64,000 bases of DNA from Zhihengliuella halotolerans. Lineage in GTDB: Bacteria > Actinomycetota > Actinomycetes > Actinomycetales > Micrococcaceae. Position 1 is the stretch's first letter. Every line of letters starts with the position of its first letter. The notes under the pieces are model-generated. The model ran no database searches. It was not told the DNA's origin and saw only the letters and a list, made by a program, of their open reading frames with translations. The stretch covers positions 3,519,061-3,583,060 of the forward strand of contig NZ_SHLA01000001.1 of the NCBI RefSeq assembly GCF_004217565.1, in the 5' to 3' direction. Below are positions 20,127 through 35,456 of this stretch, piece after piece. The translations under genes were made by a program, and so were the position numbers.

Positions 20127-21407
20127 GTGTCAGCCACCTTCCACCAGACCACCGTCCAGAGATGCCCCGTTCATGAGGGCGCCGAACCCTCGCGCCTAGG
20201 CGCCGCCGTCTCTGGCGGAACCGCCCCAGGCGAGTCTCGTGAAGCCCCCGTCGCCGACTGGGTAACGCTCGACGCGCTGCACCGGGACCCGTTCCCGCTC
20301 TACCGAAGGCTCCGCGAGGAGGCACCCGTGCACTGGATCCCGGCGCTCAACCGTTATCTGGTGACGTCCTACGCGGCTTGTCACGCAATCGAGCAGGACG
20401 AGGCGACATTCTCCGCCGACGAGCGCGAATCGCTGATGAAACGGGCTATGGGGCACTCGATGCTGCGGAAGGACAACCCGGAGCATCAGCGGGACCGCGA
20501 CTCCTACGGGAAGACGCTCCGACCAGCCACAATCAAGAAGCACTGGAACGGCATCTTCGAGCAGAACTACGTTGACTGCCTCCGACGGCTCAAGAAGGCC
20601 GGCCCCGGCGCCGACTTCGTCTGGGATTTCGCGGCCCCGTACGCGGCGGAGAACCTCCGGCTCGTCATGGGCTTCCAGAACGCCACCGAAGCGGACATGC
20701 AGCGCTGGAGCCAGACGATGATCGACGGGACCGGAAACTACGCCGACGACCCCGACATCTGGGCCAAGAGCGAACGGTCCTCCGCGGAGGTGGATGCGGC
20801 CATCGACGAGATGCTGCCGTACTTCAAGGACCATCCCGACCATTCCCTCCTCTCGGGACTCGCGAGCCTGCCCATCCCGCTCGAGGCGATTCGCGCCAAC
20901 ATGAAGATGACGATCGGCGGCGGCCTCAACGAGCCACGCGACGTGCTGGCGACCACCGTGTGGGCCCTACTGCGCGAGCCGGAGCAGCTGGAGGCGGTGG
21001 TTGCGGACCCGTCCCTGCACACCGCGGCGTTCGAGGAGTCGGTGCGCTGGGTCGCCCCGATCGGCATGTATCCGCGGCAGGTCGCCAGGGACACCGTCCT
21101 CGAGGGCATCCGGCTCCGCCGCGGCGACCGCGTCGGCGTGGCGATCGGGGCGGCCAACCGTGACCCGGCGGTATTCGAGGATCCGGAATCCTTCGACATC
21201 ATGCGTCCGAAGAAGCCGCACCTGGCCTTCGGCGGCGGCGTGCACTTCTGCGCCGGCACGTGGGTCGCGCGGGCGCAGGTGGCCCAGATCGCGATGCCGC
21301 GGATCTTCGACGATCTTCCGGGCCTGCGGCTCGACGAGTCCAGCCCGGCGGTCGCCGGCGGCTGGGTCTTCCGCGGCATGCTCGAGATGCCCGTCGCCTG
21401 GGACTGA
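20127..21407 (+). CDS. Cytochrome P450 with atypical I-helix
   Basis: Soluble bacterial P450 of 426 residues. The heme-binding loop is FGGGVHFCAG with C375 as thiolate ligand, and the K-helix ExxR motif is EESVR at 303-307. The I-helix reads GGGLNEPRD (264-272) instead of the usual AGxxT, so the acid-alcohol pair that delivers protons to oxygen is replaced. A similar EP-containing I-helix and a GWxFRG-like C-terminus occur, as I recall, in guaiacol O-demethylase GcoA (CYP255A), suggesting a small aromatic ether substrate; this is inference. GTG at 20127 follows AGGAG at 20117-20121. The ferredoxin, reductase and MHS transporter genes follow directly and should supply electrons and substrate. 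Confidence 0.9.
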   Translation: MSATFHQTTVQRCPVHEGAEPSRLGAAVSGGTAPGESREAPVADWVTLDALHRDPFPLYRRLREEAPVHWIPALNRYLVTSYAACHAIEQDEATFSADERESLMKRAMGHSMLRKDNPEHQRDRDSYGKTLRPATIKKHWNGIFEQNYVDCLRRLKKAGPGADFVWDFAAPYAAENLRLVMGFQNATEADMQRWSQTMIDGTGNYADDPDIWAKSERSSAEVDAAIDEMLPYFKDHPDHSLLSGLASLPIPLEAIRANMKMTIGGGLNEPRDVLATTVWALLREPEQLEAVVADPSLHTAAFEESVRWVAPIGMYPRQVARDTVLEGIRLRRGDRVGVAIGAANRDPAVFEDPESFDIMRPKKPHLAFGGGVHFCAGTWVARAQVAQIAMPRIFDDLPGLRLDESSPAVAGGWVFRGMLEMPVAWD

Positions 21408-21476
21408 CACCCGGCCGCACCCGAACCACTCGCGCGGCGGCCTCGCCCGCCCCAACCAACTTTCAGGAGGAAAACC

Positions 21477-21800
21477 ATGCCCAACATCACCTTCGTCCAG
21501 CCGACCGGTGAAGCTGTCGAACTCGAAGCCGCCGAGGGCACCTCGCTCATGCGCGCGGCGGTGAGCAACGGCGTCGACGGTATCGTCGGCGAATGCGGCG
21601 GCCAGGCCATGTGCGCCACGTGCCACGTCTACGTCCGGCCCGAGCACGCAGACGGCCTGAGTGAGGTCACCGAAGACGAGGACGAGATGCTCGACTGCAC
21701 CGTCGCGGAACGCACGGAGCGTTCCCGGCTCGGCTGCCAGATCGCGGTCGGTCTCGAACACGACGGGATCGTCGTCGATGTCCCATCCGGGCAGGTCTGA
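21477..21800 (+). CDS. [2Fe-2S] ferredoxin (putidaredoxin type)
   Basis: Electron carrier of 107 residues that passes electrons from the reductase to the P450. The four cluster ligands are C40, C46, C49 (in CGGQAMCATC) and C87 (in LGCQIA), the adrenodoxin/putidaredoxin pattern. The ATG is preceded by AGGAGG. It starts 69 bases after the P450 stop and ends two bases before the reductase start. Class I three-component P450 systems have exactly this set of partners. Confidence 0.93.
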   Translation: MPNITFVQPTGEAVELEAAEGTSLMRAAVSNGVDGIVGECGGQAMCATCHVYVRPEHADGLSEVTEDEDEMLDCTVAERTERSRLGCQIAVGLEHDGIVVDVPSGQV

Positions 21801-21802
21801 TC

Positions 21803-23071
21803 ATGGACGAAACCACGGCAGGCGCCGGCGTCGTCGTGATCGGCGGGGGACAGGCCGGAATCCAGGCCGCGGACTCGCTGCGTGCGGCCGGATACGAGCC
21901 GCCGGTGACCGTCATCGCGGACGAGGACGGGCTCCCGTACCAGCGCCCGCCGCTGTCCAAGGACTACCTGGGGCAGGGGCCATCACCGGAGCCGCTGCCG
22001 CTGCGGGCCGGCGGATTCTTCGTCGATCGACGCATCGACCTGCGCCGCGGCGTCGCGGCGACCGCGATCGACCGGACGAGGCGCCGCGTCGCCCTGTCCG
22101 ACGGCGAGCACCTCGAATACGACTACCTGATCCTCGCCACCGGTGCCAGCAACCGCGTACTGACCTGTCCCGGAGCGGAGCTGCCGGGGGTCCGCGGGCT
22201 GCGCACGCTCGAGGATGCGCAGGCTCTGCGCGGAGAGCTCGAGACGGTCGGCGATGTCGTCGTGGTCGGCGCCGGATTCATCGGCCTGGAGTTCGCGGCC
22301 GCCGCTCGTCAGCGGGGCGTGCGCGTCACCGTCCTCGAATTCGGAGACCGGCCCATGGGCCGCGCCCTGACTCCGGCCGCCGGCGACTGGTTCGCGGGTG
22401 CCCACCGGCGCAACGGCGTCGACCTCCGCTTCGGCGAGGGGATTGGGTCCATCGCGGCCGGAGACGACGGCCGGGCCGTCGCCGTCGTGTCGACGACGGG
22501 GCGCCGCTACCGCGCGGACCTTGTGGTGGTGGGCATTGGCGTCGTCCCGAACACGGGGCTCGCCGCCGACGCCGGCCTCGAGATCGACAACGGGATCGTC
22601 GTCGACGAATCGCTCGCGACCTCTGACCCGGCGATCCTGGCGGTGGGCGACTGCGCGAACTTCCCGAGCGCACGCAGCGGCTCACGGCTGCGGCTGGAAT
22701 CGGTGCAGAACGCCACCGATCAGGGCCGGCACGCCTCCCGGATCATTCTGGAGGGCACCGAGCGGTACGACGACGTCCCGTGGTTCTGGTCTACCCAGGG
22801 CGCGATCCGGCTGCAGATCGCCGGCGTCTCCGCGCCGGGGGACGCCACCAGCGTGGTGGGGGACCCCGCCGCGGGCAGATTCTCCGTGATCTGCCATCGC
22901 GATGGGCGCCTCAGCGCGGTGGAGTCCGTGAACTCGCCAGCCGACCACCTGGCCGCGCGCAAGCTGCTCTCCTCCGGGGACGGGCCGTCGCTTCAGGACG
23001 TCGCGGCCCCGGGATTCTCGCTCAAGGCGTTCGCACGAAACGCCGCCAACCGCACTGCCTCCACCCACTAG
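21803..23071 (+). CDS. Ferredoxin--NAD(P)+ reductase (putidaredoxin reductase type)
   Basis: FAD flavoprotein of 422 residues that takes electrons from NAD(P)H to the neighbouring ferredoxin. The FAD-binding GxGxxG is VVVIGGGQAGIQAADS at about residues 10-25. The NAD-binding fold is VVVVGAGFIGLEFAAAA at about 150, and the second FAD motif AVGDCANF lies at about 285. PYQRPPLSKDYL is typical of the putidaredoxin/rubredoxin reductase family. It lacks the disulfide of glutathione-type reductases. Third gene of the P450 operon, 17 bases before the transporter. Confidence 0.93.
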   Translation: MDETTAGAGVVVIGGGQAGIQAADSLRAAGYEPPVTVIADEDGLPYQRPPLSKDYLGQGPSPEPLPLRAGGFFVDRRIDLRRGVAATAIDRTRRRVALSDGEHLEYDYLILATGASNRVLTCPGAELPGVRGLRTLEDAQALRGELETVGDVVVVGAGFIGLEFAAAARQRGVRVTVLEFGDRPMGRALTPAAGDWFAGAHRRNGVDLRFGEGIGSIAAGDDGRAVAVVSTTGRRYRADLVVVGIGVVPNTGLAADAGLEIDNGIVVDESLATSDPAILAVGDCANFPSARSGSRLRLESVQNATDQGRHASRIILEGTERYDDVPWFWSTQGAIRLQIAGVSAPGDATSVVGDPAAGRFSVICHRDGRLSAVESVNSPADHLAARKLLSSGDGPSLQDVAAPGFSLKAFARNAANRTASTH

Positions 23072-23088
23072 CACCGCAGGAGAACACC

Positions 23089-24492
23089 ATGTCCGCACCC
23101 GCACCGGTTGCGCAGCAGAAGGCGAATCAACGACGAGTCGCCGCCGCCACGCTCATCGGAACCACGATCGAATGGTACGACTTCTTCATCTACGCGACGG
23201 CCGCCGGTCTGGTCTTCGCGCAGCTCTTCTTCGAGCCTTCCGGACAGTCCATCGGCCTGCTGCTGGCGTTCGCCTCGGTCGGCATCAGCTTCCTCTTCCG
23301 TCCGCTGGGCGCGTTCCTGGCCGGGCACTTCGGGGACAAGATCGGACGCCGCCCCATGCTGGTCATCACGCTGGTGCTCATGGGCGCGGCGACCACGCTG
23401 ATCGGCATCCTGCCGACCTATGAGACGGCCGGCGTCATCGCGCCGATCATGCTCCTGATGCTGCGCATCCTGCAGGGCGTCTCCGCAGGTGGCGAGTGGG
23501 GCGGGGCGGTGCTCATGGCCGTCGAGCACGCGTCGCCGGGCCGTCGCGGCAGGGCCGGAGCCGTGCCACAGCTCGGTGTTCCGCTCGGCATGCTGCTGGC
23601 CGCCGGGGTGACTGCTCTGATGATCGGGTGGATCGCGCCCGGTGACGCCTTCCTCGAGTGGGGCTGGCGCGTCCCGTTCCTGCTCAGCGTGGTCCTTGTC
23701 GGCGTCGGATACTTCATCCGCCGCGCCGTCGACGAGTCCCCCGTCTTCGAGGAGATCGCCCAGCGCAAGGAACAGACCAGGGTCCCCGTCGTCGAGCTCT
23801 TCCGTAAACACTGGCTTCTGGTGATTCTGGCCGCTGTGGTCTTCGCCGGGAACAACGCCGCCGGCTACATGGCGACGGGCGGCTTCATCCCGAGCTACGC
23901 AAGCGGCCCGGCGGTGGGGCTGGAACGCACCGACGTGCTGCTCGCGGTGACCTTCGCCGCCGCCCTGTGGTTCTGCTTCACTCTGCTCTCCGGTTTCCTC
24001 TCCGACGTGATCGGGCGCAAGCGCACGTACCTCATCGGTTTCGCCTCCCAGGCCCTGATGGTGTTCCCGTTGTTCTGGCTCATCAACACGGGAGACCTGG
24101 TGCTGCTGTATGTTGCACTCGGCCTGTTCACGATCGGCTTGGGGCTCTCCTACGGCCCTCAGGCAGCGTGGTACAGCGAGATCTTCCCGGCCAGCGTCCG
24201 GTTCTCCGGTGTCTCGATCTCCTACGCGCTCGGCGCCATTATCGGCGGAGCGTTCGCCCCGACGATCGCCCAGGCGCTCGTCAACGCGACGGGGAGCACC
24301 GACGCGGTCTCCTTCTACCTCCTGGCGATGACGGGACTCTCGGTCGTCGCCGTCGCGCTGCTGCGGGACCGCCGCGGCATCGACTTGTCCGTGTCCAACC
24401 AGGCCGAGCAGGAGGTCGGGGCGACGATCTTCGACCACCGCCGCGCCGCGGCCGGCGAAGCTGCGCCTGCGGCGGAGCCCGCGCGGCGCTGA
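23089..24492 (+). CDS. MFS transporter, MHS family, of the P450 operon
   Basis: Proton symporter of 467 residues with 12 predicted helices and MHS hallmarks GTTIEWYDFFIYA, GDKIGRRPM and LRILQGVSAGGEWGGA. ATG at 23089 follows AGGAG at 23078-23082. The open frame extends upstream to 22780 but inside the reductase gene. Placement as last gene of the P450 operon suggests it imports the P450 substrate. By eye it is identical at well over half of its positions to the transporter at 7950-9344, including PVVELFRKH and FPASxRFSGVSISYALG. Confidence 0.92.
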   Translation: MSAPAPVAQQKANQRRVAAATLIGTTIEWYDFFIYATAAGLVFAQLFFEPSGQSIGLLLAFASVGISFLFRPLGAFLAGHFGDKIGRRPMLVITLVLMGAATTLIGILPTYETAGVIAPIMLLMLRILQGVSAGGEWGGAVLMAVEHASPGRRGRAGAVPQLGVPLGMLLAAGVTALMIGWIAPGDAFLEWGWRVPFLLSVVLVGVGYFIRRAVDESPVFEEIAQRKEQTRVPVVELFRKHWLLVILAAVVFAGNNAAGYMATGGFIPSYASGPAVGLERTDVLLAVTFAAALWFCFTLLSGFLSDVIGRKRTYLIGFASQALMVFPLFWLINTGDLVLLYVALGLFTIGLGLSYGPQAAWYSEIFPASVRFSGVSISYALGAIIGGAFAPTIAQALVNATGSTDAVSFYLLAMTGLSVVAVALLRDRRGIDLSVSNQAEQEVGATIFDHRRAAAGEAAPAAEPARR

Positions 24493-25021: not shown

Positions 25022-25771
25022 CTACATCTGCTCACTGATGGAGCGTGCGGCGCTCATGAGCTGAGGTCGAAGCTTCATCATCTCGTCGCCGCTCAGCGTG
25101 TCGTCGTGCGCCACGATATTGACAGCGCCCGACACATCGCCTTCCGGTGTCCGGATCGGGGCTGCGAGGCTGACCGCCCCGTGGTGGCGTTCTGAAACGC
25201 TCAAGTAGAAACCCTGCCTGCGGATGGACTCGACTTCACGCTCGAGGTCTGCGGGCGTCTGCTCGCGACCATCCGCCAACGTCTGGGTGCTGAACCCGGC
25301 AAGGGCTTCCTCGTAGTCCGCCGCTGGCAAGAACGCGAGTAATACTTTGCCGCTGCCTCGGGTCAGCTCGAGCCGGTGACCGATCGGCAGCTGATATCGC
25401 ATGGGGTGAGGCGCCTCGACGCGGCAAGTCAGCACGCGAGTGTTGCCGGTGCGGACGTAGATCGACGACGTCAGGCCAGTGGCATCGGTCAGGCCCTGGA
25501 GCACGGGAAACGATACGACGCTGAGTCGATCCTGGAGGGTGAACGCGCGTGCCAGCGACAAAACAGAAGGCCCGACGGTATAGCCGACGTCCGTAGCCCG
25601 CAGGTACCCGCGCTGAACGAGAGTCGTCGCAAGTCGCTGGGTCGTGGCCAGGTGCAGGCCGGTTTCGCGTGAAATCTGGCTCAGCTTCACAGGGCTGCGG
25701 ACCGTGCTGACGTAGTCGACGATGTCCAGCGCTCGCTCGACCGTGCGACCGCGGTTGTTGCCGTCTGCCAT
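25022..25771 (-). CDS. IclR-family regulator
   Basis: Regulator of 249 residues. The N-terminal winged helix (TVERALDIVDYVSTVRSPVKLSQISRETGLHLATTQRLATTLVQRGYL) is followed by an IclR effector (GAF-like) domain with VEAPHPMRYQLPIGHRLELTRGSGKVLLAFLP and GAVSLAAPIRTPEGDVSGAVNIV. ATG at 25771 is chosen because GAGAGG precedes it; the longer frame to 25927 runs through the promoter. It is divergent from the dehydrogenase-RraA/TRAP operon and should control it. The inverted repeat at 25896-25914 is the likely binding site. IclR factors commonly respond to aromatic or short organic acids. Confidence 0.88.
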   Translation of the reverse strand: MADGNNRGRTVERALDIVDYVSTVRSPVKLSQISRETGLHLATTQRLATTLVQRGYLRATDVGYTVGPSVLSLARAFTLQDRLSVVSFPVLQGLTDATGLTSSIYVRTGNTRVLTCRVEAPHPMRYQLPIGHRLELTRGSGKVLLAFLPAADYEEALAGFSTQTLADGREQTPADLEREVESIRRQGFYLSVSERHHGAVSLAAPIRTPEGDVSGAVNIVAHDDTLSGDEMMKLRPQLMSAARSISEQM

Positions 25772-25856: not shown

Positions 25857-25914
25857 TTGACATCACTGTGGGCTGTGCCACTATGATGAGTGCGAACTCT
25901 CACAGAGTGAGAGT
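25857..25914 (+). promoter_or_regulatory. Promoter and inverted repeat upstream of dehydrogenase-RraA gene
   Basis: TTGACA (25857-25862) and TATGAT (25882-25887) are 19 bases apart. Just downstream, ACTCTCAC-AGA-GTGAGAGT (25896-25914) is a perfect inverted repeat with 8-base arms covering the likely transcription start. It is the strongest candidate operator for the divergent IclR protein. Confidence 0.6.
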
Positions 25915-25944
25915 AATACTCAAGCAATGATAGGAAGTTTCGTT

Positions 25945-27297
25945 ATGCGAGTTGCAGTGTTGGGTCTGGGGGAGGCCGGTCGGGTGTTCGCGGAAGGGTT
26001 CGCCCGGCATGGCCACGCAGTGGCAGGGTTCGATCCTGCCGATGTCAGCGTCGACAGCGCAGTCGAACGCAAAAGTTCCGTGGCAGAGGCGGTGGGCGAC
26101 GCCGACGTCGTACTCAGCCTGACGACGGCCGCACACGCGGTTTCGGCCGCGAGCGAGGCCGCCTTCTCTGCGCGGAGCGGGGCCGTGTACATCGACATGA
26201 ATTCGGGATCGCCGCAGCTCAAGGCGGAGGTTCGCGACGCGACGCTCGGACGCGACATCGAAGTCGTGGACGGGGCGGTCATCGGGTCGGTTCGAAGCGT
26301 GGGTATCGGGGTTGAAGTACTGTTGGCTGGCCCGGCCGCGGAGGAAGCCGCACGGAGACTGGCAGTCCTGGGTGGCAACCCCACGGCGATCAGCGAGGTG
26401 CTCGGCGCCGCTTCCCAGCGCAAGTTGCTGCGCAGCGTCTTCATGAAAGGTCTCGGGGCGCTCATCAGCGAGTCGATGGACGCTGCGGAACTGGGCGGCG
26501 AACCCGAGTGGATGCGCGAACAGATCGCGGGCGCTCTGGCCGATGGTGATCCGGGGGTGGAGCGGCTGCGCTCGGGGACGCTTCTCCATGCGGCCCGGCG
26601 GGGTCGAGAGCTCTCGGACAGTCTCGCCGGACTGGCTGGGCCGGAGTCATCATGGCCCGTGACGTTCGGGGCGCGGGAGTACCACTTGCGGGCCGCGCAC
26701 TCCGAGATGGACCTGTCGAGCAGCCTCGCCACGATTCCCACAGCCGCGTTGGGCGACGCCGGCGACCGGATGGGGTTGTTGCACTCGTCGATTAAGCCGG
26801 TGTGGGACGCTCCAGCGGTGGCCGGCCGGGCGTTGACAGTTTGGACGCGTCCTGGAGACAATGCGGCTGTGCACCGGGCGCTGGACATCGCGCGTCCGGG
26901 TGACGTGTTGGTCGTGGCCGCCGGTGGTCACGTCGAACGGGCACTGATGGGAGAGCTGATCGGTGAACGCGCCGTCTCCAAGGGAATCCGCGCCTTCATT
27001 ACCGACGGCGCCGTGCGTGATGCGCAGGAACTGGCGAAGATCGGCTTTCCCGTGTGGGCCGGGGGCGTTTCGCCGGCTGGTCCCTACAAAGATGGCCCCG
27101 GGCGCGTCGACGTCCCGGTTTCCATTGGTGGCGCCGTGTGCTCGCCCGGTGACTACATCGTGGCCGATGGCGATGGCGTGATCGTCATCCCGTCCGTGGC
27201 GGCCGAATCTCTGTTGTCCCGCGGCCGGGCGGTACTGGCCGATGAAGCCCTCCGCCGAAGTGAGATCCTCCGCCGGCGCGAGGAGGGTGATTCCTGA
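25945..27297 (+). CDS. Fusion of NAD(P)-binding dehydrogenase (DUF1932 type) and RraA-like aldolase
   Basis: Two-domain protein of 450 residues. Residues 1 to about 245 form a 6-phosphogluconate/3-hydroxyisobutyrate dehydrogenase-like unit with Rossmann motif VLGLGEAG, YIDMNSGSP and a helical DUF1932-like part (KLLRSVFMKGLGALISESM). Residues from about 260 form an RraA/HMG-CHA aldolase fold with GELIGERAVSKGIRAFITDGAVRDAQEL, which keeps the metal-site G...L...R-D pattern, and a PGDYIVADGDGVIVIP tail. ATG at 25945 has GGAAG upstream; an ATG at 25927 is possible. The stop overlaps the TRAP permease start. A plausible role is NAD-linked oxidation of a branched hydroxy acid followed by retro-aldol release of pyruvate. 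The substrate is unknown and I know no characterised homologue. Confidence 0.82.
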   Translation: MRVAVLGLGEAGRVFAEGFARHGHAVAGFDPADVSVDSAVERKSSVAEAVGDADVVLSLTTAAHAVSAASEAAFSARSGAVYIDMNSGSPQLKAEVRDATLGRDIEVVDGAVIGSVRSVGIGVEVLLAGPAAEEAARRLAVLGGNPTAISEVLGAASQRKLLRSVFMKGLGALISESMDAAELGGEPEWMREQIAGALADGDPGVERLRSGTLLHAARRGRELSDSLAGLAGPESSWPVTFGAREYHLRAAHSEMDLSSSLATIPTAALGDAGDRMGLLHSSIKPVWDAPAVAGRALTVWTRPGDNAAVHRALDIARPGDVLVVAAGGHVERALMGELIGERAVSKGIRAFITDGAVRDAQELAKIGFPVWAGGVSPAGPYKDGPGRVDVPVSIGGAVCSPGDYIVADGDGVIVIPSVAAESLLSRGRAVLADEALRRSEILRRREEGDS

Positions 27298-28654: not shown

Positions 28655-28903
28655 GTGCGTCAGTCATTGAATAGAGCTTTCACCACCCTGTACGCCGTGG
28701 CGATGATCGCGTTCCTCGGGCTCGCCTTCATCCTGGTGCTTGCGCAAGCCGCGGGCCTCGTTCTCGCACAAGGAGACTGGATCGTGGGGGCTTCCGAATC
28801 GTTGCTCCGCCCGGCCATCATTGCCGCTGTGGTTGCCGGTCTGCTCGGGTTCAGCGTCTACAACGTTCAGGGGAGACCGGAAACTGAGGATGACAAGGAC
28901 TAA
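28655..28903 (+). CDS. Small two-span membrane protein beside TRAP permease
   Basis: Protein of 82 residues with two hydrophobic segments (about 10-34 and 48-70) and an acidic C-terminus ending TEDDKD. GTG at 28655 is used, with TAGGAGG at 28644-28650 partly inside the permease stop. An overlapping ATG at 28653 reads into an immediate stop. It is far shorter than a DctQ subunit (about 160 residues, four spans), so it is either a reduced small subunit or an accessory protein. Last gene of the IclR-controlled operon. Confidence 0.7.
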   Translation: MRQSLNRAFTTLYAVAMIAFLGLAFILVLAQAAGLVLAQGDWIVGASESLLRPAIIAAVVAGLLGFSVYNVQGRPETEDDKD

Positions 28904-29086: not shown

Positions 29087-30418
29087 CTACTTGATGCCGG
29101 CGGTGGCCTTGGAGTTGCTCTCGCCGTCGAGGCGATCGCCCGGGGCGGCCCCGTAGCGCTCGGTCTCGATGTCCTGCAGCGTGCGGCCGCTGGTGTTCGG
29201 GGCGCCGATCCAGCCGATGATCATGGCCGCGACGAGGAGGGCGATCATGATGACGCCGACGAAGGCGACGCCCTGTTCGGCCAGCATCGTCGGGAACCAG
29301 TAGCTGAGCACGCCGACTAGGATGCGGGCGACGAAGAAGAGCAGGCCCTGGGCGCTGGCGCGGTACTTGGTCGCGAACATCTCGGCGGCCCACAAGGCGT
29401 AGAACGCCTGGGCGCCGATGCCGGCGGCGACGCCCCACAGGACGGCGAAGAGGATGAGCATCGGCATCGTGATGTTCGCGAAGACCAGCAGGACCCAGGC
29501 GGCGATGCCGAGGATCGCGCCCAGCAGGTAGAGCTTGCGGCGGTCGACCCGGTCGCCGTACTTCATGAAGCCGAAGTAGGTGGCGGCCACCGTGCACGTC
29601 CAGAGCAGGACCTGGAGCAGGTTCTGGCTCGTCGCCGACTCGACGCCCGCGGACTCGTAGACGCGCGGCATGAAGATGCCCATCTGGCCGGCGACCAGGT
29701 TCCACAGCGCGTAGACGCCCGTGAGGAACAGCAGGGCCTTGACGTTGCCCTTGTTCAGCAGCAGCTCGCGGTAGTTCCGGCGCTTGATGCCGGTCGAGGC
29801 CTCGGAAGCGAGGCGCTCCGCGTTCGACTTCTTCCAGGTGTCGGACTCGCCGAGGCCGCGGCGGACCCACCACGTCACCAGAGCGACAAGGAAGAGATGC
29901 GCGAAGATGATGCGCGAGCCCAGCAGGCCCAGCGGCACCACGAGTGTGGCGAAGAGGAAGACGAGCGCCGGCCCGAGGGACCAGGCGAGCTGGGCCGAGC
30001 CCACGTGCTTGGCGCGATCGGCGGCTGGCGCCTCCTCGGCGATGTAAGTCCAGGCCACGGGCACGCCGGCGCCGACGGCGATGCCGGTCAGCACGACGCC
30101 GGTCAGCAGCATCGCCGGATGCGTCGCGAACACGACCAGCAGTGTGCCCGCCATGTAGACGACGAGGTCGTAGGTGTAGATGAACTTGCGGCCGAACCGG
30201 TCGCCGGCCCAGCCGCCGAGCAGCGCGCCGATCGCGGCGCCGAACGCGTTGGCGCTGATCGCGGCGACCAGCCCGATCACCAGGTTGGAGAAGCCGAAGT
30301 ACTCCTGCCAGAACGCCAGCGAGGTGGCCAGGGCGATGATCGAGCCGGCTTCGATGTAGTTGGACATGGCGACGGCGATGGTCGCCTTCCAGCCGGTGAC
30401 CTTGGGTTTGGTGGACAT
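29087..30418 (-). CDS. MFS sugar transporter, probably for L-rhamnose
   Basis: MFS protein of 443 residues with 12 predicted helices, motif GGWAGDRFGRKFIY between helices 2 and 3 and GDRVDRRKLYLLG between 8 and 9. It lies 61 bases downstream of the L-rhamnose mutarotase gene on the same strand, preceded by AAGGA. The mutarotase promoter carries the same TGAAWCGWTTCA-type operators as rhaI, so the pair likely belongs to the rhamnose regulon and this protein would bring in rhamnose. The substrate is inferred purely from context; family members also carry acids and polyols. Confidence 0.82.
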   Translation of the reverse strand: MSTKPKVTGWKATIAVAMSNYIEAGSIIALATSLAFWQEYFGFSNLVIGLVAAISANAFGAAIGALLGGWAGDRFGRKFIYTYDLVVYMAGTLLVVFATHPAMLLTGVVLTGIAVGAGVPVAWTYIAEEAPAADRAKHVGSAQLAWSLGPALVFLFATLVVPLGLLGSRIIFAHLFLVALVTWWVRRGLGESDTWKKSNAERLASEASTGIKRRNYRELLLNKGNVKALLFLTGVYALWNLVAGQMGIFMPRVYESAGVESATSQNLLQVLLWTCTVAATYFGFMKYGDRVDRRKLYLLGAILGIAAWVLLVFANITMPMLILFAVLWGVAAGIGAQAFYALWAAEMFATKYRASAQGLLFFVARILVGVLSYWFPTMLAEQGVAFVGVIMIALLVAAMIIGWIGAPNTSGRTLQDIETERYGAAPGDRLDGESNSKATAGIK

Positions 30419-30479
30419 CAGGATTCCTTTGGAGAGATTTCGTGCGTGCTCCGGCCGCGTCGCTGCGGCTGCGGAGCGG

Positions 30480-30845
30480 TCAGGCGAGGCGGAAGTAGGG
30501 CAGGAGCGCCTCCTGGACGCTGCCCTCGACGAAGTACTGGGCCATTTCGGCTTGCCAGGTGGCGTTGACGGGGTCGGCGCCCATGGCTGCCTGCGCTGCG
30601 TCGACGTCGTCAGCCTCGAAGTAGCCGACTACCAGGCCGTCCTCCTCGCGCAGGAAGAGCGTGTAGTTGCGCCAGCCGTGACGGCTGAGGGCTTCGAGCA
30701 TCTCCGGCCAGACGCGCTGGTGGGCTTCGACGTACTCGGCGAGGCGCTCGGGTTTGACGTGCAGCAGGAAGGCGGCGCGCGTGGACGTCACGTCCTCGCC
30801 CAACTGAACGAGATCGGCGACGCCTGCGGTGGTGTCCTCACCCAT
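30480..30845 (-). CDS. rhaM: L-rhamnose mutarotase
   Basis: Enzyme of 121 residues that interconverts alpha and beta anomers of L-rhamnose, speeding entry into the isomerase pathway. After a roughly 20-residue extension not present in the E. coli protein, the ferredoxin-like fold shows AAFLLHVKPERLAEYVEAHQRVWPEML with the catalytic histidine region. NYTLFLREEDGLVVGYFEAD and a conserved WQAEMAQYF region follow. ATG at 30845 follows AAGGAGG. First gene of a two-gene operon with the transporter. It lies 15 kb from rhaI-rhaD-rhaB but shares operator sequences with it. Confidence 0.9.
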   Translation of the reverse strand: MGEDTTAGVADLVQLGEDVTSTRAAFLLHVKPERLAEYVEAHQRVWPEMLEALSRHGWRNYTLFLREEDGLVVGYFEADDVDAAQAAMGADPVNATWQAEMAQYFVEGSVQEALLPYFRLA

Positions 30846-32510: not shown

Positions 32511-33143
32511 CTACGCGTCGGCGAGGATCACCACCGCCAGATTGCGCGGGCCGTGCACGCCCTCGACGCGCTCGAGCTCGATGTCGCTCGTCGCGCTCGG
32601 ACCCGAGATCCACGTCTGCGGGCGGGAGATGTCCAGGCGCGGCAGGGCCTCCGGCAGCAGTTGCACGATGCTCGACGCCGCCACCACGCACACGTGGGTG
32701 TCCGGCACCAGCGAGATCGCCCGCCGCCCCTGCGCCGCGGATCCGTCGAGGATGATCGTGCCGGACTCGGAGACCGAGACCGCCGACGCCGTGACCACGG
32801 CGTCGATCGCGTCGAGGTCCGCGACCGATGTCGGCTGCTCGGGTGAATCGACGATGCGTCGCGCGCCGGCCGGCACCGCGGCCAGCCACGCCTCGTCGAG
32901 CCCGGCGGGCACCACGTACGACGACGCCGCGGCCAGTCGCGCCGCGATCGCCGCCGCCGCCTCGGCCGCCGGCACGACGTCGACTCTCGCCTTGTAGTCG
33001 ACCAGACGGTCGACGAGCTGCTCGATCAGCTGCTCGCGGGTCAGCTCCGAGGTCCGACGGTAGGTGCGCTGCACCTCGGGGGCGGCAGGTGCGTCGCTCA
33101 ACGCGGTGCGGATGCGGCTCATGATCTCGTCGCGGGCGCTCAT
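32511..33143 (-). CDS. lutC: Lactate utilization protein C (LUD domain)
   Basis: LUD-domain protein of 210 residues and third component of the LutABC L-lactate oxidase complex. Family features are the N-terminal MSARDEIMSRIRTAL helix, AVVTASAVSVSESGTIILDGS and a C-terminal ISGPSATSDIELERVEGVHGPRNLAVVIL that closely matches the family consensus. The ATG at 33143 overlaps the lutB stop by four bases (ATGA). The complex converts L-lactate to pyruvate, passing electrons to the respiratory chain. Last gene of the lut operon. Confidence 0.92.
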   Translation of the reverse strand: MSARDEIMSRIRTALSDAPAAPEVQRTYRRTSELTREQLIEQLVDRLVDYKARVDVVPAAEAAAAIAARLAAASSYVVPAGLDEAWLAAVPAGARRIVDSPEQPTSVADLDAIDAVVTASAVSVSESGTIILDGSAAQGRRAISLVPDTHVCVVAASSIVQLLPEALPRLDISRPQTWISGPSATSDIELERVEGVHGPRNLAVVILADA

Positions 33144-34624
33144 GAGCGTCCCTCCTTCTTCCACCAGTCGCGGAACGACTGGGCCGGCGGGGCGGGAATA
33201 TCGCGTGAAGAAGTCCAGGCCCCCGCGAGCTTGCCCGGCAGTTTCTTGATCTTCTTGTCGCGTCCGGCCGCGAGGCGCCCGAGCGGCAGGGCCTTCTCCA
33301 TCAGGTTCAGGACCTTTCCGGAGGAGAGGGCGATTTCGGCGCCCTTCATGAGCAGGTCCATCTCGGTCGGCACGCGACTTGCGGCGTGCTGGGCCTTCAC
33401 GTCCTCGCCGCGCAGGTGCACGAGGATGTCCGGGATGTTGATCTTCACCGGGCAGGCGTCGTAGCAGGCGCCGCAGAGGCTCGAGGCGTAGGGCAGCGAG
33501 CCGTTGTCCTCGGCCTCGATGCCCGTCATGAGCGGGGAGAGGATCGCGCCGATCGGACCCGGGTAGGTCGAGCCGTAGGCGTGGCCGCCCGTCCGCTCGT
33601 ACACCGGGCACACGTTCATACAGGCGGAGCAGCGGATGCAGTTCAGCGCGGTGCGGCCGTACTTGTCGGCCAGCGCGTTGGTGCGGCCGTTGTCGAGCAG
33701 GACGATGTGCACGTTCTGCGGGCCGTCGCCCTCGGTAACGCCGGTCCAGAGGGAGGTGTAGGGGTTCATGCGCTCACCCGTCGAGGAGCGGGGGAGTAGC
33801 TGCATGAACACCTCGAGGTCCTGCGCGCTCGGCAGCACCTTCTCGATGCCCATGACCGTGATGAGGGTTTCCGGCAGCGTCAGGCACATGCGCCCATTGC
33901 CCTCGGACTCGACGACGCCGAGTGTTCCGGTGTCTGCCAGCGCGAAGTTCGCCCCGGAGATCGCGACCTTCGCGCTGAGGAACTTCTGGCGGAGGTGGGC
34001 GCGGGCCGCCATCGCCAGCTCGGCGGGGTTGTCTGTCAGGTCAGGGTCTACCTCGGGCATCTCGTTGAGGAAGATATCGCGCACCTCGGTGCGGTTCTTG
34101 TGGATTGCGGGAACCAAGATGTGGCTCGGCTTGTCGTGCCCCAGCTGGACGATCAGCTCCGCCAGATCCGTCTCGAAGGCGGCGATGCCCTGCTCCTCGA
34201 GGTGCTCGTTGAGGCCGATCTCCTGGGTGGCCATCGACTTGACCTTGACGATCTCCTCCGAGCCCGTTGCGCGCACCAGATCCGTGACGATCCGGTTGGC
34301 CTCCTCCGCATCGCGCGCCCAGTGGACGACGCCGCCGCGGGCGGTGAAGTTCTTCTCGAACTCGTCCAGCTTGGCCGGCAGGTCCGCCATGACGGCGTCC
34401 TTGGTGTCCGACCCGGCCTGGCGCAGGTCCTCCCAATCCGGCAGCTCGCCGACGACGTTGAGCCGCTTGTCGCGGATGGTGTGGGTCGCGTGGCGCAGGT
34501 TGGCGCGCAGCTGGCTGTTTCCGAGCTCGCGCGTCGCGGCCTGCGGGAACGGCTCCTCGGCGTGCAGGTTCCCGTGTCCGCGCTGGCTCGGCAGGGTCGG
34601 CATGCCGACAAAGGTGGAACTCAT
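33140..34624 (-). CDS. lutB: Lactate utilization iron-sulfur protein B
   Basis: Iron-sulfur subunit of the LutABC complex, 494 residues. A LUD domain occupies about residues 60-300. A bacterioferredoxin-type two-[4Fe-4S] segment follows, with CIRCSACMNVCP at about 330 and CGACYDACP at about 385, and then a helical C-terminal region. The ATG at 34624 overlaps the lutA stop by four bases. In this lineage LutB carries a short N-terminal extension (FVGMPTLPSQRGHGNLHAE). It works with LutA and LutC at the membrane, oxidising L-lactate, including that made from rhamnose lactaldehyde. Confidence 0.93.
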   Translation of the reverse strand: MSSTFVGMPTLPSQRGHGNLHAEEPFPQAATRELGNSQLRANLRHATHTIRDKRLNVVGELPDWEDLRQAGSDTKDAVMADLPAKLDEFEKNFTARGGVVHWARDAEEANRIVTDLVRATGSEEIVKVKSMATQEIGLNEHLEEQGIAAFETDLAELIVQLGHDKPSHILVPAIHKNRTEVRDIFLNEMPEVDPDLTDNPAELAMAARAHLRQKFLSAKVAISGANFALADTGTLGVVESEGNGRMCLTLPETLITVMGIEKVLPSAQDLEVFMQLLPRSSTGERMNPYTSLWTGVTEGDGPQNVHIVLLDNGRTNALADKYGRTALNCIRCSACMNVCPVYERTGGHAYGSTYPGPIGAILSPLMTGIEAEDNGSLPYASSLCGACYDACPVKINIPDILVHLRGEDVKAQHAASRVPTEMDLLMKGAEIALSSGKVLNLMEKALPLGRLAAGRDKKIKKLPGKLAGAWTSSRDIPAPPAQSFRDWWKKEGRS

Positions 34625-35412
34625 CGGGTGGCCCCCGTCGTCGTGCTGGGGACTTCGGCCGGTTCCTCGAGCGTGGAGGCGAGGATCTCGGCCAGGTGCA
34701 GCGTTCCGGCGGCCGAGCCGGCGCGCGAGAGGCCGCCGCCGATGTGCAGTAGGCAGGACGCGTCGCCGCCGGCGCAGAGCCCGGCACCGGTGGAGCGGAT
34801 GTTCTCCGCCTTGTCCTCGAGCATCGCGGTGGAGACCTGCGCGTTCTTCATGGAGAACGTGCCGCCGAAGCCGCAGCAAGCGTCCGCCTCGGGCAGTTCG
34901 ACGACGTCGATCCCGCCGACTGTCTTCAGTAGATCCAGCTGGCGGTCGCCCAGGCGCAGCAGGCGCATGCCGTGGCAGGAGGGGTGGTAGGTGATGGTGT
35001 GCGGGAAGTAGCTGCCGAGCTGCTCGGCGGCGTCGGTCACGCCGAGGACGTCGACCAGCAGCTGGGTGAGCTCGTACGTCTTCGCGCCGACTGCGGTGGC
35101 CCGCTCGGCGAGGTCCGTGTCGCCGGCGCGCTCGGCGAGCATCGGGTGCTGGTGCTTGACCGAGGCGACGCAGGAGCCCGAGGGTGCCACGGCGACGTCG
35201 TACTCGACGGACTCGAACGCCGTGATGTGGTTCGCGGCGACCTTGCGCGCGGCGTCGAAGTAGCCGGAGTTGGTGTGCATCTGCCCGCAGCAGGCCTGGC
35301 CGGCCGGGAAAACCACCTCGTGACCGAGGCGCTCGAGGATCCTGACGGTGGCGCGCGCCGTCGACGGGTACATCGCGTCGACGATGCACGTGGCGAAGAG
35401 GGCGATTCTCAT
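34621..35412 (-). CDS. lutA: Lactate utilization protein A (CCG domains)
   Basis: Protein of 263 residues with two cysteine-rich CCG domains that bind unusual iron-sulfur clusters, as in GlpC and heterodisulfide reductase HdrB. The motifs are AGQACCGQMHTNSG and HPSCHG with ADACCGFGGTFS. ATG at 35412 is the only start near the family N-terminus RIALFATCIVDAMYP. First gene of the lutABC operon, divergent from a FadR-family regulator whose likely operator lies at 35441-35451. Confidence 0.93.
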   Translation of the reverse strand: MRIALFATCIVDAMYPSTARATVRILERLGHEVVFPAGQACCGQMHTNSGYFDAARKVAANHITAFESVEYDVAVAPSGSCVASVKHQHPMLAERAGDTDLAERATAVGAKTYELTQLLVDVLGVTDAAEQLGSYFPHTITYHPSCHGMRLLRLGDRQLDLLKTVGGIDVVELPEADACCGFGGTFSMKNAQVSTAMLEDKAENIRSTGAGLCAGGDASCLLHIGGGLSRAGSAAGTLHLAEILASTLEEPAEVPSTTTGATR

Positions 35413-35440
35413 TCTGACCCCAGGTGAGTGGAAAGCGGTG

Positions 35441-35456
35441 TGGTCTGACCATAGTA
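35441..35456 (-). promoter_or_regulatory. lut promoter with FadR-type operator TGGTCTGACCA
   Basis: TGGTC-T-GACCA (35441-35451) is a perfect odd palindrome matching the TGGTnnnACCA form known for FadR/LldR-type GntR proteins. It overlaps the candidate lutA -10 TACTAT (35456-35451 on the minus strand). Position fits repression of lutABC by the divergent regulator and relief by lactate. Confidence 0.72.

Follow-up and report, generated by a model that had tools for sequence, protein, structure and literature searches.

A single gene in the 64,000-nucleotide stretch of Zhihengliuella halotolerans contig NZ_SHLA01000001.1 analyzed here (the window) encodes a protein in which a beta-hydroxyacid-type dehydrogenase is followed by an RraA-like aldolase, and the gene lies in a conserved cassette with a regulator, a permease, and a small membrane protein. 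In the best-fitting mechanism, to which we assign a probability of about 45%, one chain would oxidize an imported hydroxy acid with NAD and its aldolase would then cleave the product to pyruvate. The domain assignments, the retained active-site residues, and the gene context given in a preliminary description of the sequence are supported; the oxidation and retro-aldol cleavage that it proposed, with the substrate and the order of the two steps, we only infer.

The open reading frame list of the window contains one uninterrupted frame at 25927..27297 (+). The ATG at 25945 is a better start than the beginning of this frame, since AGGAAG lies 7 bases upstream and relatives mostly begin with MKVAVLG, MRVAVLG, or alike. 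Residues are numbered from this methionine (450 amino acids [aa]), and Pfam ranges follow a 456-aa scheme. Pfam matched the protein to NAD_binding_2 (residues 8 to 140, 44 bits) and RraA-like (273 to 420, 156 bits), while a PDB sequence search matched 4ezb over 5 to 261 (E 2e-19) and 3noj over 258 to 440 (E 3e-35). Structure prediction, which the preliminary description had called for, recovered both folds in the model. The window protein was aligned with 136 relatives of at least 420 aa, taken from 268 returned proteins, to give 137 rows; all 136 align through both halves, one of them without the extreme N terminus. The single frame and these relatives confirm the proposed single-chain fusion and led us to reject an artefact of joined frames. 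A one-off fusion was rejected as well, since protein databases hold many related fusions. Both catalytic sites look intact in the alignment: the preliminary description would have been undone by loss of catalytic residues in both domains, and no such loss was seen, with two reservations: the offset of E434 in the 3noj alignment and the asparagine pair missing after the catalytic lysine.

The assignment of the N-terminal half to the beta-hydroxyacid-type dehydrogenases is upheld by the NAD_binding_2 and 4ezb matches and by the retained catalytic lysine, K160. Pfam, the model, structure comparison, and the alignment agree on a Rossmann domain with GxGxxG plus a helical C-terminal domain. D30, N86, D109, G114, K160, and R163 are invariant in the 137 rows, the glycines of the dinucleotide loop are present in 136 (one gap), and K93 is present in 135; position 164 is serine in 111 rows and threonine in 26. 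The aspartate D30, which ends the second strand, suggests that NAD is preferred over NADP. The DUF1932-like part claimed for this half holds only in part. The window protein has no match to Pfam DUF1932 (PF09130) at E 0.01, and among the matches listed, the nearest fusions also miss this model, whereas many more distant fusions match it. DUF1932 gave zero matches in the source genome at E 1e-8.

In the C-terminal half, the G...L...R-D metal pattern of the preliminary description was located at G336-E337-L338 ... R358-D359. N306, G336, R358, D359, and E434 are invariant in all rows; E337 is found in 127 (aspartate in 9, isoleucine in 1), K382 in 124 (arginine in 13), and H310 in 120. The half has the alpha-beta-beta-alpha aldolase fold of the RraA-like class II pyruvate aldolases (PF03737). 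In the PDB sequence alignment, R358-D359 align with R123-D124 of 3noj, a 4-hydroxy-4-methyl-2-oxoglutarate (HMG)/4-carboxy-4-hydroxy-2-oxoadipate (CHA) aldolase, for which the portion of PMC5065237 consulted describes Arg-123 as essential and Asp-124 as metal binding. That this half is instead an RNase E-type regulator without aldolase activity is very improbable: the Arg-Asp pair and Glu434 are kept in 137 of 137 rows, the nearest structure is an aldolase, and the gene shares an operon with a permease. The model of the RNase E regulator RraA, NF006875, scored 85.8 bits versus a cut-off of 136.

The gene-neighbor survey suggested in the preliminary description covered the window, L001, and 25 further regions drawn from 24 genomes. 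These 27 fusion loci include near relatives and are not 27 independent cases; the cassette is kept across most of them (Table 1). The IclR regulator and the carboxylate permease named as context are both confirmed by family matches beside the fusion. In the window, the permease ATG and the fusion stop share one base (TGATG). The permease is divergent in L043, and in L039 it is replaced by TctC, a short gene, and TctA. It seems not to belong to a standard TRAP system, since the genome has a single match to the DctP partner (PF03480), some 1.1 Mb distant, in a search that did not extend to other binding-protein families or DctQ; the permease's only solved relative in the PDB at E 0.01 is a TRAP DctMQ (E 3e-6). 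A member of the small membrane protein family lies within 9 kb of the fusion in 23 of the 27 loci, and the window gene is hidden inside a longer frame of the open reading frame list. The IclR gene, which as listed runs to 25927 through an upstream TTG, is divergent and adjacent to the fusion in 19 loci; in each of the other 8, an IclR-like gene occurs at another place no more than 6 kb away, and because genes of this kind are common, chance may explain part of this. Neighbors beyond the cassette vary: a PF04199 cyclase occurs in 7 of 27 loci, an Ldh_2-type dehydrogenase in 2 (the near relatives L041 and L042), TctA in 2, and a CoA-transferase III within 9 kb in 3 (L043, L051, and L056). A PDB search with the cyclase matched one uncharacterised protein.

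Four upstream regions (window, L001, L036, and L037) were aligned. TTGACA of the predicted promoter is identical in all four and TATGAT in three, with one base differing in L037. The palindrome ACTCTCAC-AGA-GTGAGAGT can be recognized in all four and is a plausible IclR operator. An automatic palindrome search of 27 upstream regions found no common site, although the four-region alignment did show one. A consensus promoter scan, which allowed only spacers of 16 to 18, missed the predicted promoter, and the sole site that it reported is inside the coding region. Used as a guide to a regulon, the palindrome led to one further genomic site, near a gene judged by eye to be MerR-like, and a control pattern gave an equal count.

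The same cassette exists in unfused form in the window's own family, where L088 contains TctB, TctA, TctC, RraA, the dehydrogenase, the permease, the small membrane protein, the cyclase, and a divergent IclR gene. An Arthrobacter plasmid (L096) matches this set, save for TctB and the small membrane protein, which were not seen in the comparison. In genome G1071, L090/L056 contains CoA-transferase III, a CitE-like lyase, the permease, the small membrane protein, RraA, IclR, and the dehydrogenase; a fused cassette lies no more than about 8 kb from this unfused set. Eight plasmid records were viewed. Two, out of 440 matches, were chosen because their RraA match adjoins a dehydrogenase, and the other six come from the 24 matches to the L088 dehydrogenase. 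The stretch viewed has an RraA/CHA-aldolase gene in five of the latter six, and that of an Agrobacterium vitis plasmid has a dehydrogenase match without one. By annotation, three of the eight records are ring-cleavage clusters: Diaphorobacter (ligK, DUF1932, amidohydrolase, ligA, dioxygenase beta, Gfo/Idh/MocA), Thermus oshimai (catechol 2,3-dioxygenase, DUF6282, PIG-L, CHA aldolase, dehydrogenase), and Thioclava (4-oxalomesaconate tautomerase, CHA aldolase, VOC protein, PIG-L, DUF1932). The oxalomesaconate hydratase GalB is itself a PIG-L protein. Rhizobium sp. Pop5 has an SLC13 and a TRAP large permease (as annotated), then DUF1932, then RraA, and the window permease gave zero matches in this stretch. 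Near unfused pairs we observed PrpF and DUF6282 (L089), DUF6282 and PIG-L (L095), and a tautomerase and PIG-L (L098). The recurrence of DUF6282, PIG-L, and PrpF or a tautomerase near such pairs possibly reflects an undescribed ring-cleavage route.

In the mechanism that we favor, the DctM-like permease would import a hydroxy di- or tricarboxylate, and the IclR regulator would control the operon at the palindrome. The dehydrogenase half would oxidize a hydroxyl with NAD to give a 4-hydroxy-4-carboxy-2-oxo acid. The metal-dependent aldolase half would cleave this acid to yield pyruvate together with another 2-oxo acid (either pyruvate again or oxaloacetate), and both products would enter central metabolism without further enzymes. 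Since the cassette has only a permease and one soluble protein, the fusion alone should bring the acid to central metabolism. RraA-type aldolases require a 4-hydroxy-2-oxo acid as substrate, and oxidation of a 2,4-dihydroxy acid by the dehydrogenase could create the 2-oxo group. The presence of unfused pairs in ring-cleavage clusters points to CHA-like acids, and the most likely substrate class is 2,4-dihydroxy-4-carboxyadipate-like or 2,4-dihydroxy-4-methylglutarate-like, that is, reduced CHA or HMG. A bolder version, which we hold to be rather improbable, makes the fusion a salvage enzyme that would reoxidize imported reduced CHA or HMG (dead-end forms from ring cleavage), cleave them within one chain, and hand the oxo acid from one site to the other. 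In protocatechuate- and gallate-type clusters, the unfused dehydrogenase would then be a repair step missing from those textbook pathways.

Several points weigh against oxidation followed by cleavage. The structural model has a predicted template-modeling score (pTM) of 0.73, which leaves the domain arrangement open. The metal-binding Glu-199 of 3noj aligns two residues off from E434, and the aldolase half misses the CHA-aldolase equivalog cut-offs (152.4 versus 179 bits for NF006731 and 135 versus 304.5 bits for TIGR02798). The classic branch of beta-hydroxyacid dehydrogenases has K-x-x-N-N, with asparagine at +3 and +4 from the lysine, whereas the fusion has K-x-x-R-S/T in the 137-row alignment; the asparagine pair is absent too from nine other dehydrogenases compared. 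Beta-hydroxyacid dehydrogenases usually oxidize a hydroxyl beta to the carboxylate, and the proposed route asks for an alpha hydroxyl. L-Threonate dehydrogenase is the precedent relied on for alpha-hydroxyl oxidation, yet its model, NF043037, gave only 20 bits versus a cut-off of 350. The established routes for gallate and protocatechuate 4,5-cleavage are not known to require such a dehydrogenase, so its reaction is unexplained even in the unfused clusters. The substrate may also differ between loci, since the neighbors beyond the cassette (cyclase, Ldh_2, CoA-transferase with CitE-like lyase, and Tct) vary. Finally, a survey of 148 genomes of the class, with roughly 3 kb fetched per locus, found 23 DUF1932 loci, comprising one fusion (L081), two with a separate RraA within about 3 kb (L082 and L083), one (L076) in which RraA lies just past the fetched stretch and is visible in L056/L090, and 19 with no RraA gene within or just beyond it. 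Most DUF1932 dehydrogenases thus stand without RraA.

Those 19 loci also speak for a different reading, in which the dehydrogenase half acts on another molecule of the same pathway and the fusion merely ties co-regulated enzymes together. The CoA-transferase III and HpcH/CitE-type lyase in the cassettes of L043 (fused) and L090/L056 (split) may act likewise, and the L090 enzymes are encoded apart, with the IclR gene between them. The pair nonetheless recurs in adjacent positions, in either gene order, in distant bacteria, which favors sequential steps and makes this reading doubtful.

The steps could also run in reverse, with the aldolase cutting an imported 4-hydroxy-2-oxo acid and the dehydrogenase reducing the released aldehyde or 2-oxo acid. 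In glucarate breakdown the aldolase GarL and the reductase GarR, as separate enzymes, work in this order; tartronate-semialdehyde reductases are among the dehydrogenases matched, and the Ldh_2-type dehydrogenase beside the cassette in L041 and L042 could provide the 2-oxo group. Reverse order is nevertheless unlikely. Two tartronate-semialdehyde-reductase models reached only 26 and 29 bits versus cut-offs of 340.75 and 397, Ldh_2 is confined to just those two closely related loci, and characterised RraA-type aldolases yield 2-oxo acids, not aldehydes. Less likely still is oxidative decarboxylation, in which the dehydrogenase would make a 2-oxo diacid and the RraA half would decarboxylate it, like a malic enzyme spread over two domains. 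The additional annotation of CHA aldolases as oxaloacetate decarboxylases is in keeping with this idea, as are the dicarboxylate-type permease and the tricarboxylate transporters in the context. Malic enzymes, however, use one site for oxidative decarboxylation, which makes a two-domain solution roundabout, and the unfused pair occurs in clusters seemingly built for CHA cleavage.

The fusion is not rare in databases. Of 7992 proteins scored in a search, 701 were relatives at E 1e-10; the 120 of these that were listed are 431 to 522 aa long, all with RraA-like and most also with NAD_binding_2. The organisms among the matches listed are actinobacteria, including Citricoccus, Nocardiopsis, Brevibacterium, Corynebacterium, Nesterenkonia, Streptomyces, Saccharopolyspora, Mycolicibacterium, and others, and the database labels ("RraA family protein," "NAD(P)-binding domain-containing protein," and similar) do not state a function. 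Whole-genome counts at E 1e-60, in overlapping samples that each include the window's own genome, show a patchy distribution: 2 of 396 genomes in the phylum sample, 10 of 394 in the class sample (query P0084), 12 of 396 in the order sample, and 6 of 295 in the family sample. A scan of genome contigs turned up one fusion, L001, along with a single distant RraA match.

Trees of each half were built from 35 of 70 aligned fusions (every second one) and single-domain relatives; P0149, P0150, P0154, P0155, P0157, P0164, and P0170 are in neither tree. The first pair had four label changes (RraA) and three (dehydrogenase). Six sequences were removed before the second pair. P0121 and P0151 were judged to be pieces of fusions, since each matches a portion of a listed fusion at 99.7% and 98% identity, respectively; P0153 (89%) and P0152 (66%) were judged likewise, as their alignments begin inside the fusion and they come from short contigs of 1311 and 900 bases, which is a matter of judgement. 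L034_ShinRraA0 was dropped for its very long branch and L035_NitDH2 as a D-2-hydroxyacid dehydrogenase by eye. After this clean-up, a branch with support 81 (not starred) separates the aldolase halves of the fusions from the single-domain relatives, and the dehydrogenase tree still has two label changes, a tree holding the fusions together not being rejected (p-AU 0.16). The trees of both halves are compatible with one fusion event. If P0152 or P0153 is truly single-domain, the fusion was split again at least once.

Table 1. Features of the fusion gene and its cassette in the window
Feature	Position	Strand	Details
IclR-family regulator, divergent, ATG at 25771	25022..25771	-	PF01614, PF09339
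Predicted promoter	25857..25887	+	TTGACA 25857-25862, TATGAT 25882-25887, spacer 19
Palindrome ACTCTCAC-AGA-GTGAGAGT, predicted IclR operator	25896..25914		Recognisable, with changes, in L001, L036, L037
Fused dehydrogenase-aldolase	25945..27297	+	450 aa, stop included
Beta-hydroxyacid-dehydrogenase half, residues 1-252	25945..26700	+	GLGEAG dinucleotide loop, D30, N86, Lys160 (26422-26424)
RraA/CHA-aldolase half, residues 255-445	26707..27279	+	N306, H310, G336-E337, R358-D359 (27016-27021), K382, E434
DctM-like permease, 449 aa	27297..28646	+	PF06808, 164 bits; directly downstream in 25/27 fusion loci
Small membrane protein, 82 aa, GTG start	28655..28903	+	AGGAGG upstream; 68% identical to L036 copy

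Two other gene groups of the window were identified by eye. Consecutive genes at 20127-24492 (+) resemble a cytochrome P450, a 2Fe-2S ferredoxin, a ferredoxin reductase, and an MFS transporter; upstream of them, a LysR-type gene lies on the opposite strand. Overlapping open reading frames at 32511-35452 (-) resemble lactate-utilisation LutA, LutB, and LutC. At 29087-30845 (-), genes for an MFS transporter and a rhamnose-mutarotase-like protein are both retained beside the cassette in the same-genus genome G442, and none of the remaining loci among the 27 gave a match to them.

Both halves are known enzyme kinds, and their one-chain order is present in databases and undescribed within the PDB and open-licence papers searched; there, as the preliminary description had supposed, no characterised enzyme with this domain order was found. 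The open-licence literature searched gave no description of a dehydrogenase-RraA fusion, nor of RraA together with DUF1932, or with a beta-hydroxyacid or 3-hydroxyisobutyrate dehydrogenase and an aldolase, and the portions of PMC5065237, PMC10154247, and PMC6592069 consulted name no such dehydrogenase. A dehydrogenase without an assigned reaction recurs beside CHA-type aldolases in some clusters and is merged with one in actinobacteria, with its own permease and regulator. One protein with two optical read-outs (NADH and pyruvate) could assign the reaction of the orphan DUF1932-type dehydrogenases, could reveal an overlooked side or repair step in the protocatechuate and gallate routes, and would also serve as a ready-made one-pot catalyst for converting hydroxy acids that are branched.

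Among known systems, the closest to the N-terminal half are the DUF1932-type dehydrogenases 4ezb, 3qsg, and 1i36, which are stand-alone proteins of the same fold with 26 to 32% identity to it and PDB titles that assign no function. Like the fusion, 4ezb has a G-x-G-E-A loop, a D-x-N-S ... K stretch, and a catalytic lysine followed by Arg-Ser. 3-Hydroxyisobutyrate dehydrogenase, tartronate-semialdehyde reductase, and L-threonate dehydrogenase share the Rossmann and helical fold and the catalytic lysine, but identity is about 16 to 23% in the rows displayed, and the fusion falls far under their equivalog cut-offs. The C-terminal half is 36% identical to the Pseudomonas putida HMG/CHA aldolase (3noj; LigK/PcmE/GalC kind, PF03737). 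In 3noj the acid following the pocket glycine is aspartate, whereas the fusion has glutamate; the fusion also carries the N-terminal dehydrogenase that 3noj lacks and stays below the LigK/CHA-aldolase equivalog cut-offs. The source genome holds a second RraA fusion (L062:4886-6391; G000:C1, about 1342885-1344390), likely of the PRK12764 kind, with a fumarylacetoacetate-hydrolase N-terminal half; genes for a GntR-type regulator and an aldehyde dehydrogenase come after it. Its RraA half has tyrosine and lysine at the positions of Asn306 and His310, and, as in the dehydrogenase-aldolase fusion, RraA forms the C-terminal part of a two-domain protein.
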